From Anaerolineales bacterium (GTDB lineage: Bacteria; Chloroflexota; Anaerolineae; Anaerolineales; UBA4823): a stretch of 36,162 bases of DNA. Every line of letters starts with the position of its first letter. Position 1 is the first letter of the stretch. Positions 10,291 to 19,066 of the stretch are shown here, in pieces. The position numbers and the translations under genes were made by a program. The DNA lies in the NCBI GenBank assembly GCA_014859065.1, contig JACUUU010000004.1, positions 1 through 36,162 on the forward strand. Direction: 5' to 3'. Under the pieces are notes generated by a model, which was given only the letters and a program-made list of their open reading frames with translations, had not been told where the DNA came from and did not search any database.

Positions 10291-12129
10291 TCAGACAAGC
10301 AGGGCGTATAGTTTATGATCTGTTGATCCAAAATAAATTTTGTTATCTTCTGCTGCTGGGGTGCCGGTAATTGGGCCATCCGATAAGAACTTCCAGCGCA
10401 ATCGGCCGGTACGATGTTCTAAACAATAGAGGTGACCGTCAACTGAACCACAGTAGAGAGAATCGGTGTATATTATTGCTGAGCCATTTACCTGGTGTTC
10501 AGTCTTGAACTTCCAGATTTCCTTACCAGAACCTGCATCGATACAGTAAATATGACCATCCGCAGACCCGACATAGACCTTGCCTTCATGAACCAGCGGG
10601 TTCGATATTGATCCTTTTCCCATACGAAAACGCCAAACAACCCACCCTGTTTTGGCTTCCACTGCGTAAATTGTCGAGTCCAAAGAACCAAAGTAAAGCA
10701 AGCCATCTGAAATTGCTGGCGAAGAAGTGATGGCGCGTTTGGCTTTGAATCGCCACTTCACCGCTCCGCGGAACTCTAAACAGTAGAAATCGCCTGCTTC
10801 TGTTCCAAAATAGATAGCTTCACCATCGACTATGGGGGTAGAACGAATTGGGGTGCCTGCTTCGGTTTTCCACACCTGACGACCACTTAGCAAATTCACA
10901 GCATGCATGAAACCATCGTCAGAACCGATAAACACGTGGCCGTGCGCAATCAAGGGGGATGAGCGCACCGGACCCTCGGTAAAATAGGTCCACACGACAC
11001 GCCCTGACCGGGACGAGACCACATGCAAGCGGTGGTCCTCAGACCCGACAAATATATCTCCCTCGTGGATTGAAGGCTTGCTTACGACACCTCCATCGGT
11101 TGGGTACTTCCAGTTAAACTCTCCGGTTGAAGCGTTGATCGAATAAAGGTTGTGGTCGTAAGAACCGATGAAAACCGTGCCTCGGTGAACCATAGGTGAA
11201 CCACGGATTTCGTCTTCACAAGCAAATGTCCACACCGGGTCGATAAATTTTTCCATATTGGGTTGTTCCTGTTTCTTGGTGTGTTTCAGAGGCCTGCTGG
11301 TAAATTCCCCGGTAGTTCGGGCGATGTTGATCAAGGCCTCTTTCATCGCCATCGCGCTCGGGAAACGGTCTTCAGGTTTGTATTGCAGTGCCTGGTTAAT
11401 GACATCAGCAAACGCTTCTGAAATTTGTGGGTTTATCCTGCGGATCGGTCGTTCAGAAAAAGAAAATGGTGGTTCCAGCCGGGGATCACGCCTGGTTAGA
11501 AGGTGGTGCAGGGTGGCGCCAAGTGAGTAAATGTCAGCCAATGCAGTTGCCTCGCCGCGATACTGTTCAGGAGGGGAGTAGCCCTCCGTTCCGATCATGG
11601 TGCCCTTTTCTCCAGTTTGAAAGTGCTTGGCAATGCCAAAATCTACCAGGATAATGTGGTTGTGCTCGTTGATCATCACATTGGAGGGCTTGATATCACG
11701 GAACACAATCGGTTCCGGTTTGAGAGTATGCAGATAATGCAGAACATCGCACAGCTCAATCCCCCAGCCAATCACTTGATGTTCAGGTAGAAAAGATGCG
11801 CTTTCATGTAGCAATTCTTCCAGATCTTTGCCTTTGACAAATTCCAGGATCAAATAAGAATTCTTCTCATAGGTGAAATAATCATATATGCGCGGGATTG
11901 CTGAGTGAGATAGGGTTGCCAGCAGATTCGCTTCGCGCTCAAAATTTCTGATAATCGTTTTCCGCAGGAGTGGATCACTCTCGCGGTTTATCATCTCCTT
12001 AACGGCAACCAGTTTAACCACATTGGGGAAGTGCATATCGCGAGCTTTATAAACCGCCCCCATGCCGCCAACACCGATGACACCCTGGATTACATAACGA
12101 TCACCAAGGGTGTAATTGGCTTTAAGCAA
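10291..12129 (-). CDS. Ser/Thr protein kinase with C-terminal eight-repeat PQQ-like propeller
   Basis: The frame from TTG 12127-12129 gives 612 residues. The kinase domain covers about 10-275: glycine loop GVGGMGAVY at 19-27, Lys44, FRDIKPSN at 143-150 (Phe in place of the His of HRD), DFG at 163-165, and SPPEQ in the activation segment. Residues about 295-612 contain eight similar blades, each with a Trp-containing strand (VWTF, NWKY, VWTY, VWKT, KWRF, VWRF, IWKF, RWKF) followed by VFIGS- or YFGS-like strands, as in PQQ/BamB-type beta-propellers. There is no membrane segment, so the protein is probably cytoplasmic and the propeller would bind a ligand or substrate. A stronger ribosome site lies upstream before an in-frame CTG at 12187-12189, which would add 20 residues. 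It heads the signalling run. Confidence 0.92.
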   Translation of the reverse strand: MLKANYTLGDRYVIQGVIGVGGMGAVYKARDMHFPNVVKLVAVKEMINRESDPLLRKTIIRNFEREANLLATLSHSAIPRIYDYFTYEKNSYLILEFVKGKDLEELLHESASFLPEHQVIGWGIELCDVLHYLHTLKPEPIVFRDIKPSNVMINEHNHIILVDFGIAKHFQTGEKGTMIGTEGYSPPEQYRGEATALADIYSLGATLHHLLTRRDPRLEPPFSFSERPIRRINPQISEAFADVINQALQYKPEDRFPSAMAMKEALINIARTTGEFTSRPLKHTKKQEQPNMEKFIDPVWTFACEDEIRGSPMVHRGTVFIGSYDHNLYSINASTGEFNWKYPTDGGVVSKPSIHEGDIFVGSEDHRLHVVSSRSGRVVWTYFTEGPVRSSPLIAHGHVFIGSDDGFMHAVNLLSGRQVWKTEAGTPIRSTPIVDGEAIYFGTEAGDFYCLEFRGAVKWRFKAKRAITSSPAISDGLLYFGSLDSTIYAVEAKTGWVVWRFRMGKGSISNPLVHEGKVYVGSADGHIYCIDAGSGKEIWKFKTEHQVNGSAIIYTDSLYCGSVDGHLYCLEHRTGRLRWKFLSDGPITGTPAAEDNKIYFGSTDHKLYALLV

Positions 12130-14929: not shown

Positions 14930-15757
14930 TCATTGTTCTGACTTTGGTTTTAACTGTTGGCGTGCGGTATTCAATAGATGTGAGGAGGCTGCGATGATGG
15001 TGGGATATATCTTCTGGCGGTAATCCTCTTTGGCAACCAGGGGGAAAGGTTGGTCTTGAGGATCGAATCCAGCGACACTGCCCCTGGCTTCAGTTACCAG
15101 CAGCCATCCGGCAGCGATATCCCAGATTTTCGGGGTGGCTTCGAACCCTAGAATCGCGATTCCACGGGCGACTGCACAGAAAGTATAGGCAGCAGAACCC
15201 AAAATGCGTGGTTTGAAGCGGATACCGACTTCGTAAAGCCGGTAAGTGCGCGAGCAAGAGGAAAAGAAGCTGGTCTTGCTGTTCTTATTTAATGGTGAGA
15301 CGTGCAGTGGTTCACCATTCAGCCTTGCCCCTGAGCCGCGGCGGGCAGAATAAAGCTCATCAAAAATGGGAAAATACAGCACTCCGATATCAGGCCAACC
15401 ATTTACCAGGCGGGCGATGGAGATGCCCCAGATTGGCAGCCCCAGGCTGAAATTCGTAGTACCGTCTAAAGGGTCTACTACCCATACACCATCAGGTTGA
15501 TCGGTTTCTGCAGGGTCATAGAGCGGGCAAAGCTCCTCACTGATCAGGCTGTCATCAGGGTAGTTCTTCTGAATTGCATCCGCAATAAGCCTGTCAGCAG
15601 CCAGGTCCGCTTCGGTGATCACAGATTGGTCTGATTTTAGCTTAGAGCTGCTCCCATGCGGGTTAAAATGTTCCAAAAGCAGCTGACCGGTATCTCTGGC
15701 AAGCTGAACGGAGAATTTCAAATCGTCCATTGCAGTGAGTATATCACGAGCGCTCAT
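14930..15757 (-). CDS. Inositol monophosphatase family protein
   Basis: A 275-residue protein with the metal-binding motifs of the Li-sensitive phosphatase superfamily: SEE at 73-75, WVVDPLDGTTNF at 92-103 with Asp95 and Asp98, and KIWDIAAG with Asp213. It would hydrolyse a sugar or inositol phosphate, or a related substrate such as fructose-1,6-bisphosphate; the family does not allow a finer call from these motifs. GSAAYTFCAVARG lies in the substrate-side region. There is no signal peptide. The ATG at 15755 has no strong ribosome site, and Met10 is an alternative. It lies 69 bases after the amidohydrolase gene. Confidence 0.9.
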   Translation of the reverse strand: MSARDILTAMDDLKFSVQLARDTGQLLLEHFNPHGSSSKLKSDQSVITEADLAADRLIADAIQKNYPDDSLISEELCPLYDPAETDQPDGVWVVDPLDGTTNFSLGLPIWGISIARLVNGWPDIGVLYFPIFDELYSARRGSGARLNGEPLHVSPLNKNSKTSFFSSCSRTYRLYEVGIRFKPRILGSAAYTFCAVARGIAILGFEATPKIWDIAAGWLLVTEARGSVAGFDPQDQPFPLVAKEDYRQKIYPTIIAASSHLLNTARQQLKPKSEQ

Positions 15758-15826: not shown

Positions 15827-17809
15827 TTAACTGGTGGGGGGAACAAGAGCTGGATATTCTTCTACGATTATATCTTCAGGCGTTGCTCCCAGGAACAGGA
15901 TCAGGTCTGTTGAGACTTCTGCCTTATGTTCTGCGTCGCGGCGGCTCCAGGTACGGCTTTTTACTTCGACAAAATAGCCCAAATTTGGCTGGTCTAGGCG
16001 GTCGAGGTTAATGTAAAACTCAGTGCCTTTATAGAGCACGCGCCAGCGTAAGCGATCTTTCTCGACGAAGATCTCATGAGTAGGCTTGAAGTACTCGCGA
16101 TAGAAGCGCAGGCTGTGCACCGCAGGCGCAAGATAACGGCTGCGGGAGAGCAAGACGTCGTTAGGATAATGGCGTTCACGTTGTTGTCCAATCAAGGTCA
16201 GGCGATAGCGGATGTTTGATATGTTGCCGTCCTCATCGATGTATTCATCTTCGCGGTAGCGTAAGCTGCCCTGTTCAGATCCATCAAAGATAAAGTAGCT
16301 GTCATACTCGTGATAGTGGCGTGAGTATAGGATTTCAATTTCGGGTTTTTCCAATGCTGTTAAGACTAGCTTTGGATCGGGGATACGCGCCTTGACCTGA
16401 ACTTCGAAACTTTCCCCTTCGGTTGCCCCACCAATCGCGAGCAATTTGGAGAGGACGGATTGTTCGCGCTCGATCAAGAAAGCATCAATGCGACGGGCGT
16501 AATCATGGGCTTGCTCTGCCAAGCCTTGCTCTTCTAAGGTCAGCAGGCGGTGATCACGCATCAGCCATTGTCCATTTACCATGACGTCGGTCACATCTGT
16601 CGATTTGGCAGCATAAACCAGCTGGGCATAGATGCTGTTCTCATCCCGGCGGTAGTGCGGAATGTTGTGCCAATTGTTGATGTTTACCAGGATCAAGTCG
16701 GCGCGTTTCCCTGGTTCGAGCGATCCGATCAGGTGTCCGAAGTGCAGTGCCTGAGCACCCAGGCGGGTAGCCATCGCTAACGCAATTGGTGCCGGGAGGC
16801 TGGTTGGGTCACCAGTCGCATTTTTTGCCAGGAATGCTGCCAGGCGCATCTCTTCAAACAAGTCCAGATCGTTGTTGGAGGCAGGACCGTCAGTCCCTAT
16901 GCCTACATTCAATCCGGTATCCAACATTTTCTTTACCGGCGCTGTGCCGGAAGCTAGTTTGAGGTTAGAGGAGGGATTATGTGCTACACCAGCGCCATGA
17001 TGCAGCAGGGTGTGGATTTCGCCATCATCGATATGGACGCAGTGGGCGGCTAAGACCTTTGCGTCAAACAAGTTCTGCTTTTTAGCATATGGGATGACCG
17101 GCATGTCGTGTTCCTGGCGGGAATTCTCCACCTCCAGGGCAGTTTCGGCTAGGTGGGTGTGTATGGGCACATCGAATTCAAGTGCCAGCTCTACAGTGGC
17201 GCGCAGGATTTCTTCTGTGCAGGTATAAGGGGCATGCGGACCAATCGCTGGCTCGATCAGGGGATGACCTTTCCATCGTTGGATAAATTCACGGGCTGCT
17301 CCCAGGGACTCTTCGAATGCATCTGCATCTGGTGCCGGGAATTTTAACACTGTCTGCGCACATAACGCCCGCATGCCGACCTCAGCTGTGGCTTTGGCAA
17401 CCTGTTCCTCGAAGTAATACATGTCTGCGAAGCAAGTCACTCCCGAGCGGATCATTTCGGCACAGCCCAGCAGCGCTCCCAGGCGGACAAAATCGGGTGA
17501 GACAAAGCGTCGCTCGACCGGCATCATGTAGCCCAACAACCAAACATCCAGGCGCAAGTCGTCCGCAAGGCCTCTCAATAAGGTCATCGAGACATGGGTG
17601 TGGGCGTTGACCAAGCCGGGCATGAGCACTTTACCCTGACAGTCGATAGTCTCATTGGCTTGGTAGTCGTTGATTAATTCTTTGTCGGGAGCGACCGCAA
17701 GAATGCTGTCCCCATCAATCGCCAATCCTCCGGGTTCAAATTTGGTGTAGTTTTCATCCATCGTCAGGACGATGGCGTTGGTGAGGAGCAGGTCGATGTT
17801 GTGTTTCAT
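15827..17809 (-). CDS. MTA/SAH deaminase-like amidohydrolase fused to a CYTH-like domain
   Basis: A single 660-residue frame. Residues 1-440 are an amidohydrolase of the ATZ/TRZ type, which deaminates S-adenosylhomocysteine or 5'-methylthioadenosine. The metal ligands are visible: His70 and His72 in NAHTHVS, His218 in IHTHLAE with Glu221, the HCVHIDD segment near 256-262, and Asp307 in GIGTDGPASNN. Residues about 466-650 form a second domain resembling CYTH (adenylate cyclase IV / thiamine-triphosphatase): EVQVKARI at 469-476 in place of ExExK, alternating basic and acidic strands (IRYRLTLIG, LRWRVLYKG) and LGYFVEVKSR near 609-618. CYTH enzymes bind triphosphates. AGGAG lies 6 bases before the ATG. 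The domain is not part of known stand-alone MtaD proteins as far as I know. Confidence 0.85.
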   Translation of the reverse strand: MKHNIDLLLTNAIVLTMDENYTKFEPGGLAIDGDSILAVAPDKELINDYQANETIDCQGKVLMPGLVNAHTHVSMTLLRGLADDLRLDVWLLGYMMPVERRFVSPDFVRLGALLGCAEMIRSGVTCFADMYYFEEQVAKATAEVGMRALCAQTVLKFPAPDADAFEESLGAAREFIQRWKGHPLIEPAIGPHAPYTCTEEILRATVELALEFDVPIHTHLAETALEVENSRQEHDMPVIPYAKKQNLFDAKVLAAHCVHIDDGEIHTLLHHGAGVAHNPSSNLKLASGTAPVKKMLDTGLNVGIGTDGPASNNDLDLFEEMRLAAFLAKNATGDPTSLPAPIALAMATRLGAQALHFGHLIGSLEPGKRADLILVNINNWHNIPHYRRDENSIYAQLVYAAKSTDVTDVMVNGQWLMRDHRLLTLEEQGLAEQAHDYARRIDAFLIEREQSVLSKLLAIGGATEGESFEVQVKARIPDPKLVLTALEKPEIEILYSRHYHEYDSYFIFDGSEQGSLRYREDEYIDEDGNISNIRYRLTLIGQQRERHYPNDVLLSRSRYLAPAVHSLRFYREYFKPTHEIFVEKDRLRWRVLYKGTEFYINLDRLDQPNLGYFVEVKSRTWSRRDAEHKAEVSTDLILFLGATPEDIIVEEYPALVPPTS

Positions 17810-17878: not shown

Positions 17879-19066
17879 CTAAAGTGCAAATTTTTGTATA
17901 GACCGCAGTAAATTCAGGCTTTGGTGAAAAGCCCACTGGGGGGCATTGGCTGGAGGACCACCGTAAGGACGCATTTCCTGGTGTGTATGGTGGGGGGTAA
18001 TCAATACCAGATGAACCTCCTGGAGATTCTCTCGGGCTTGGATGGTTACACCCAAACCGACGGAAGCCCTTCGCTTTTGCCGGTAATCATTGGTTCGCTG
18101 CAGCAAATCAGCAGGACTTACTGGTTTTGTGAGCACCTCTCCGCCTAAGAAAGTATCATCTCCAGTCAGTGCCAGACGATTAACCAAGAAACTACCTCCC
18201 CCAGATACGACCACAACCAGGTTCCAACCAGATGCTTTCAGGGCAGATAATGCGCTGTTCTCGAGGGTTTCTTCATCTACTCCATAAACCCAGTCTTCTA
18301 GGCGTAATCGCAACTGACGTTCTACCTCAGCGATCATTTCATCTGCTTTCTGGTCGCTGTCAGCTTTGGCGGTGATGCGTACATCCACCTGACCTGTATA
18401 TGCAGCCAAACCGACAGTCGGGTTAGTGAGAGTCTCCAGATCAGAGATCAGTTCGTCGATCTGGGATTCACCTACTCCCGCGGTGTGCAGCAAGCGGATC
18501 TTGATGACACTTTGTAGATCGTATTTGTTCTGGAGGTATGGTATGGCTGCATGTTCTAGCAGGTACTCCATTTCACGTGGCACACCAGGGAAGGCAATGA
18601 TGGAATTTGCCGGTGTTTCAACGATAAAAGCTGGTGCAGTACCTACCGGGTTCTCAACAGTAATCGCGCCATGTGGGATGTAAGCCTGGCGGCGGTTGTT
18701 CTCTGTGGGCTTACGTCCAAAACGTCGGAAGCGTTCTTGGATCTGATCCCAAAGCTCAGGCCGGTACTCTAACTCCACACCAACTGCCAAAGCGATCGCC
18801 TCACGGGTGGGATCGTCCACTGTGGGACCCAGCCCACCGGAAGTGATGATTATTTGAGCGCGTGACATCGCTTGCCGAATCACTTCCGCGATGCGCTCCT
18901 CATTGTCACCCACCGTGGTTTTGCGGAAAAGATCGACGCCTTGCTCTCGCAGGACACGGGCGAGATGGGATGCATTGGTATCCACGATTTCGCCCAGCAA
19001 GATTTCGGTCCCGATTGTAATTATTTCAGCAGAAGGCATGGCAGACCGTCGCAGAGAGATTTGCAT
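17879..19066 (-). CDS. cinA: CinA-family protein with degenerate C-terminal domain
   Basis: A 395-residue protein. The N-terminal COG1058 domain (about 10-175) is well kept: EIITIGTEILLGEIVDTN, TSGGLGPTVDDPTRE and FPGVPREMEYL. In characterised homologues this half is an ADP-ribose pyrophosphatase, or a molybdopterin-binding fold. The middle (about 180-265) resembles the KH-like linker. The C-terminal half corresponds to the NMN-deamidase domain, but its ESCTGG-type catalytic motif reads VVSGGGS and the end (from about residue 340) is unrelated in appearance, so deamidase activity is doubtful. The start is uncertain: Met1 at 19064-19066 and Met10 at 19037-19039 both lack a good ribosome site. 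It is followed after 69 bases by the amidohydrolase gene. Confidence 0.82.
   Translation of the reverse strand: MQISLRRSAMPSAEIITIGTEILLGEIVDTNASHLARVLREQGVDLFRKTTVGDNEERIAEVIRQAMSRAQIIITSGGLGPTVDDPTREAIALAVGVELEYRPELWDQIQERFRRFGRKPTENNRRQAYIPHGAITVENPVGTAPAFIVETPANSIIAFPGVPREMEYLLEHAAIPYLQNKYDLQSVIKIRLLHTAGVGESQIDELISDLETLTNPTVGLAAYTGQVDVRITAKADSDQKADEMIAEVERQLRLRLEDWVYGVDEETLENSALSALKASGWNLVVVVSGGGSFLVNRLALTGDDTFLGGEVLTKPVSPADLLQRTNDYRQKRRASVGLGVTIQARENLQEVHLVLITPHHTHQEMRPYGGPPANAPQWAFHQSLNLLRSIQKFAL

Follow-up and report, generated by a model that had tools for sequence, protein, structure and literature searches.

We report a protein from an Anaerolineales bacterium of the phylum Chloroflexota that joins, in one polypeptide, an amidohydrolase, most likely a deaminase of the MTA/SAH/5'-deoxyadenosine type, to a second domain predicted to adopt the CYTH/triphosphate-tunnel (CYTH/TTM) fold. 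Its conserved residues and predicted structure suggest a deaminase combined with a CYTH/TTM pseudoenzyme, the tunnel of which would bind a polyphosphorylated ligand without cutting it, with binding tuning the deaminase; we hold this composite reading tentatively, at just short of even confidence. Its two parts differ in strength: binding without hydrolysis can be proposed from the sequence with fair confidence, and an effect of the ligand on the deaminase with less. Both halves are of a known kind, and the deaminase partner and an ExQxK/ExK signature in the tunnel appear to be the new elements. No description of a fusion between a CYTH/triphosphate tunnel and a deaminase or amidohydrolase, or of this signature, was found in the open-access literature, which was partially covered. 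For most CYTH proteins, no physiological role has yet been established (PMC8233210), and a tunnel fixed to one metabolic enzyme ties the CYTH fold to a named pathway. With the phosphate grip mostly kept and the cutting machinery partly lost, the question of whether a tunnel can serve as a sensor also becomes addressable in one purified protein.

A single fusion shared by many Chloroflexota

The window, i.e., the whole stretch of 36,162 nucleotides analyzed here (contig JACUUU010000004.1 of assembly GCA_014859065.1), encodes the fused protein as a single 660-residue frame at exactly positions 15827 to 17809 (Table 1). A reading made earlier from the sequence alone (here, the sequence-only reading) had proposed one uninterrupted frame of this length without giving its strand, which is the minus strand. 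Promoter and terminator scans gave a signal no greater than that in shuffled sequences.

Table 1. Features of the fused gene and its flanking genes (window positions; conservation is over 127 fused sequences)
Feature	Residues	Positions	Strand	Evidence or conservation
Upstream neighbor, CinA-type protein (MoCF_biosynth + CinA_KH)		17879..19066	-	69 nt before fused gene
Whole fused gene		15827..17809	-	660 aa, ATG start; orthologues found
Amidohydrolase deaminase domain	1-445	16475..17809	-	PF01979 E 3e-73; phmmer to 4f0r E 1e-95; structure
HxH metal ligands	H70, H72	17594..17602	-	127/127
HxxE, metal ligand and acid/base	H219, E222	17144..17155	-	127/127
Metal-site histidine	H256	17042..17044	-	127/127
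Metal-site aspartate	D307	16889..16891	-	127/127
CYTH/TTM-fold domain	463-656	15842..16423	-	AlphaFold2 pLDDT 85; Z 17.9 to 2een, 16.6 to 3n0z
EVQVK, ExExK counterpart with middle Glu = Gln471	469-473	16391..16405	-	Q471 127/127
DxY, putative counterpart of the SaTTM beta-water motif	D503, Y505	16295..16303	-	127/127; assigned by strand and spacing, motif from PMC8233210
RYRED, counterparts of the RxR phosphate-binding arginines	R517, R519	16247..16261	-	127/127
SRSR, on a strand that is acidic in active CYTH enzymes	R556, R558	16136..16147	-	126/127; register +/- two residues
EKDRLR, counterparts of SaTTM K110 and R112	K584, R586	16046..16063	-	127/127
INLD, counterpart of the LD of CYTH enzymes	D603	16001..16012	-	127/127
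VEVKSRTW, metal-1 Glu counterpart and Lys replacing the metal-2 Glu	E615, K617	15947..15970	-	both 127/127
Downstream neighbor, inositol-monophosphatase family		14930..15757	-	PF00459 E 3e-49; 69 nt after fused gene

The best 80 loci retrieved from GTDB genomes are all Chloroflexota by title, and in 76 of these the fusion can be read at full length, always joined at the same point (N-terminal parts of 445 to 449 residues); three of the others are cut by contig ends (L073, L104, and L113), and the fourth (L084) was left out for a single codon that is either a stop or ambiguous. A search with the C-terminal domain recovered the fusion in 62 of 301 Chloroflexota genomes, and a profile search recovered it in 115 of the 199 genomes of the class to which the window belongs, which disposes of the concern that it might be unique to this assembly. 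It is nearly always present once per genome, in frames of about 650 to 840 residues except at contig ends. No stand-alone version of the C-terminal domain was found among the searched Chloroflexota genomes, and a plasmid collection yielded no relative of it. One candidate split gene, in genome G142, proved to be two contig ends.

When the deaminase half was used as the query, matches with at least 49% identity were all fused, and those with less than 43% identity were all deaminase-sized frames without the second domain (mostly 440 to 510 residues, with one longer frame). In a maximum-likelihood tree of this half, a single branch with support of 100/100 separates 32 fused from 16 unfused sequences. 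The fusion is most simply a single event that preceded the divergence of the sampled families. The notion that the frame reflects a sequencing frame error, a chimeric contig, or a recent accidental fusion carries a negligible probability and was rejected: independent assemblies share the fusion with its joint in place, its occurrence is class-wide, and the deaminase tree gives it one origin.

The N-terminal deaminase domain

The Amidohydro_1 profile matches residues 61 to 415 of the protein, and phmmer aligns the deaminase half to 4f0r with about 40% identity. Overall, this domain shares 37 to 40% identity with MTA/SAH- and adenosine-deaminase-like amidohydrolases (4f0r, 4gbd, and 4dyk; TM0936), and the full-length model matches structures of this group with Z scores of 53 to 55 (4dzh, 54.9; 4f0r, 54.2). 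It also has in common with them the full set of metal ligands, as had been claimed from the sequence alone: every element of the amidohydrolase barrel signature (HxH, HxxE, H, and D), including the catalytic glutamate, is present and invariant in the 127 orthologues. Chains of the 4f0r/4gbd/4dyk type, however, stop at about 450 residues, whereas the fused protein adds about 200 as its second domain.

The window protein did not reach the NCBIfam equivalog cutoffs (the best was PRK09045, with 467.7 bits against the 540 required; the MTA/SAH deaminase PRK15493 gave 294.5 bits against a cutoff of 779), and for this reason the exact substrate is left among candidates. Its sequence makes an MTA/SAH/5'-deoxyadenosine-type deaminase the most likely assignment, with MTA, SAH, 5'-deoxyadenosine, or adenosine as candidate substrates. 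Genes of the SAH-hydrolase family occur in 57 of 60 genomes of the class and those for MTA phosphorylase in 176 of 199; hence, the deaminase is an extra route rather than the sole one.

The C-terminal CYTH/TTM domain

An AlphaFold2 model of the C-terminal domain, built from 78 aligned sequences, reached a pLDDT of 85.3 and a pTM of 0.80 (the full-length model of the fused protein, 0.88). It comprises eight strands and a helix at residues 623 to 639, as in an eight-stranded antiparallel tunnel with a C-terminal plug helix. The 15 best rows of a comparison with the PDB are all CYTH/TTM proteins (Z scores of 13.3 to 17.9), headed by 2een (Z score of 17.9 over 170 residues at 2.5 A), followed by 1yem, 2aca, and the class IV cyclase 3n0z (each 16.6) and including SaTTM (7ns9; 15.6); Foldseek likewise matched the model to a class IV cyclase with an E value of 3e-8. 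These comparisons bear out the CYTH-like fold proposed in the sequence-only reading, and the extent of the domain, about 194 residues, is close to the 185 or so given there.

At the sequence level, the picture is divided. The Pfam CYTH profile (PF01928) did not match the window protein at an E value of 10 or less, and no CYTH chain was retrieved from the PDB by sequence, whether the domain or its profile served as the query. The same profile nonetheless matched orthologues directly, in 12 of 23 (best, 1.7e-7) and in 27 of 78, several above the curated cutoff, and a genome search with it yielded fused frames of 659 to 824 residues above that cutoff in several genomes. Comparison by hhalign with stand-alone CYTH proteins of Chloroflexota gave probabilities of 94 to 96% and E values of 3e-9 to 1e-7 (the E value being for one comparison). 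For the window protein, with the CYTH chains of the PDB missed by sequence, the CYTH assignment was thus reached by fold and profile-profile comparison only; between them, the model and the profiles support a CYTH/triphosphate-tunnel fold. A match to the Argonaute N-terminal domain (PF22430; E value of 0.009 over 21 residues), below the cutoff and seen in only 3 of 78 orthologues, was taken as chance.

Conserved and replaced residues of the tunnel

Residue conservation was scored over 127 fused sequences, in all of which E469, Q471, K473, D503, Y505, R517, R519, D521, K584, R586, R588, N601, D603, E615, and K617 are invariant. Two departures from active CYTH enzymes stand out among these. The ExExK motif of those enzymes is ExQxK in 127 of 127 sequences, as the sequence-only reading had seen in the EVQVK of the window protein, and the later ExE motif, the second glutamate of which binds metal 2, is ExK, again in 127 of 127.

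The consequences can be gauged from SaTTM, in which E7 and E135 hold metal 1; E5, E7, and E137 take part in the two-metal state, where metal 2 activates the attacking water; and R56, R58, K69, K110, and R112 stabilize the triphosphate (PMC8233210 and PMC4641920). Profile alignment combined with motif order equates the metal-1 residues E7 and E135 with Q471 and E615; E5, E7, and E137 with E469, Q471, and K617; and the five basic residues with R517, R519, I540, K584, and R586, respectively. The lysine of the SaTTM TxK motif (K69) is thereby without a counterpart, and I540 in its place is variable, while the phosphate-binding RxR and KxR residues and the metal-1 glutamate are present in all 127 sequences. 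Two of the three metal-2 ligands are thus gone, one of them now a lysine, and the residues gripping the phosphate are largely retained, as is the central metal-1 glutamate. Metal 1 itself may be held weakly, because in SaTTM it also uses the glutamate equivalent to Gln471. The ExQxK/ExK departures are not decay, since no sequence examined lacks them. In AtTTM3, mutating Glu-2 or Glu-4 of ExExK or Glu-169 strongly lowers hydrolysis (PMC4641920). The suggestion that the tunnel may bind a triphosphate without hydrolyzing it was first made from the glutamine alone; it gains strength by inference from the second change (ExK), the invariance of both, and the kept phosphate-gripping residues. We also observed that a CYTH protein in which both ExExK and ExE are intact is encoded separately in the genome from which the window comes (L135, G000:C46:12638-13048), a natural control.

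The invariant residues are distributed unevenly over the predicted barrel. When the motif residues are used to set the inward register of the eight strands, strict invariance is seen at 15 of 52 inward positions and at none of 49 outward ones (Fisher P = 2e-5); with the register-setting residues left out, the figures are 9 of 44 and 0 of 49 (P = 7e-4). The signal lies in these strictly invariant positions; mean entropy differs only weakly between inward and outward positions (P = 0.10). Of the nearly invariant inward residues, 10 are basic and 5 acidic, which makes this set basic on balance.

Comparison with known CYTH/TTM proteins

Class IV adenylyl cyclases are recognized by an HFxxxxExExK signature and a small residue in place of the first RxR arginine (PMC8233210). 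The fused domain shares the fold (Z scores of 16.4 to 16.6) and the order of the motifs with these and with CyaB-like CYTH proteins (2fjt, 3n0z, and 2aca), but it has no HF before EVQVK, retains the first arginine (R517, 127 of 127), and carries Gln and Lys at the metal-2 positions. An adenylyl cyclase was rejected on the first two of these differences, which concern the published signature. In thiamine triphosphatases, a conserved W or Y stands two residues before the first RxR arginine (PMC8233210); the equivalent position 515 is variable in the fused domain, with an entropy of 2.3 bits. SaTTM (7ns9), YgiF (5a60), and mouse ThTPase (5a64) have in common with it the fold and the RxR, DxY, KxR, LD, and metal-1 Glu elements. 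It is set apart from them by the E-to-Q change in ExExK, by ExK in place of the later ExE, by the absence of the TxK lysine, and by the lack of conservation of the W/Y before RxR.

Two other tunnels depart from the canonical pattern. The polyphosphate polymerase Vtc4 has metal site 1 without site 2 and basic residues where triphosphatases have an acidic patch (PMC4641920 and PMC8233210). The fused domain resembles it in keeping a metal-1-type glutamate and in the replacement of acidic by basic residues (PMC4641920), but the structural match is weaker (3g3r; Z score of 8.8), the architecture is different, and polymerase activity is not indicated. The plant proteins TTM1/TTM2 (7z67; Z score of 14.2) likewise fuse a degenerate tunnel to an enzyme domain; in their case, the partner is a kinase, rather than a deaminase, and both ExExK and ExE are lost (PMC8233210). 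They show pyrophosphatase activity despite the missing motifs (PMC8233210), and loss of motifs is therefore no proof of a total loss of activity.

Proposed function and alternatives

On the reading that we favor, the tunnel would grip inorganic triphosphate, a short polyphosphate, or a nucleoside triphosphate by means of K473, R517, R519, K584, and R586, perhaps together with metal 1 bound at E615. The ligand would stay uncut because the water-activating metal 2 would not be held, with Gln471 and Lys617 in place of two of its glutamates. With less assurance, we suggest that binding might inform the deaminase half of the energy or phosphate state and set its rate of deamination of adenosine-type by-products arising from S-adenosylmethionine chemistry. 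The constancy of the fusion is consistent with control of the deaminase by the tunnel, or coupling to it, without proving either. Ligand control, if real, would connect the removal of methylthioadenosine-type by-products with energy or polyphosphate status. The stronger claim that the tunnel is an allosteric receptor whose ligand is triphosphate, polyphosphate, or ATP, gating deamination of these by-products across much of Chloroflexota, is possible but doubtful; if true, it would mean that the CYTH fold acts as a sensor in nucleoside salvage, a use not described before.

The tunnel could also be a scaffold that fixes an oligomer or docks a partner protein without any small ligand. In the Mediator subunits Med18/Med20, a related fold serves protein contacts, and because Mediator subunits of this same fold match the C-terminal model (Z scores of 9 to 13), the fold can be considered usable in this way. 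In a scaffold, however, conservation would be expected on the outer face, and the confinement of strict invariance to inward strand positions favors a ligand in the tunnel over a purely external scaffold; we regard this alternative as unlikely. The same inward invariance lends itself to a rather different explanation, in which the tunnel is active with altered chemistry, as a phosphatase or phosphotransferase that uses one metal or the help of a lysine, and the protein is truly bifunctional; for example, the tunnel might remove triphosphate or pyrophosphate while the deaminase half removes the nucleoside by-product. The fixed tunnel-facing residues are active-site-like, E469, D603, and E615 remain, and there are precedents in Vtc4, which works on metal 1 only with basic for acidic residues (PMC4641920 and PMC8233210), and in the persisting pyrophosphatase activity of TTM1/2 (PMC8233210). 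Against it stand the replacement of two metal-2 ligands, one by lysine, the far lower hydrolysis by AtTTM3 mutants at Glu-2, Glu-4, and Glu-169 (PMC4641920), and the fact that the catalytic lysine of Vtc4 has no mapped counterpart in the fused domain, so that we consider altered chemistry rather improbable, if worth keeping in view. Highly improbable is a role of the tunnel in presenting the substrate, whereby the deaminase would act on a phosphorylated adenosine compound held by its phosphate tail. Each half could recognize a part of an adenosine phosphate, and the full-length model is confident overall, but the enzymes that the deaminase half resembles (4f0r, 4f0s, and 4gbd) were solved in complex with 5'-methylthio compounds or inosine, and the two sites would have to lie within the length of one ligand.

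Gene neighborhoods

A gene for an MTA phosphorylase lies within 2.5 kb of the fused gene on the same contig in 12 genomes of the class, representing 8 families, and 11 of these 12 genes are convergent with it, with about 150 to 410 nt between the matched stretches. NCBIfam confirmed this neighbor in L185 (2356-3297), and L181 is another case. The count is inflated by shared ancestry, though several families are involved, and the chance expectation is well below one (about one such gene per 4-Mb genome); the adjacency is thus a pointer to methylthioadenosine or its relatives. In one deep-branching genome (L176, 479-1399), a single gene separates the fused gene from an upstream gene for an inosine/guanosine-type purine nucleoside phosphorylase.

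In 59 of the 77 fetched loci, in addition to the window, a CinA-type gene precedes the fused gene on the same strand, at a median gap of about 50 nt, and several of the loci in which it was not found carry too little upstream sequence to judge. In the window, the CinA-type protein keeps its MoCF and KH domains, but nothing in Pfam matches its C-terminal part. An SCTGG motif is expected of the nicotinamide-mononucleotide deamidase half of CinA, and 0 of 60 CinA homologues adjoining the fused gene (among L037-L116) have it. This half also looks degenerate from its sequence, because both the motif and the C-terminal Pfam match are absent.

Downstream, an inositol-monophosphatase-family gene is present in 32 loci, including the window. 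In 11 loci (L044, 6656-7507, and ten more), a calcineurin-like metallophosphoesterase directly follows the fused gene at a median gap of 6 nt. Farther away in the window, a serine/threonine kinase-like frame (10291-12129, minus strand) has repeats resembling PQQ beta-propeller repeats in its C-terminal half, and about 26 loci have a homologue of it close to the fused gene.
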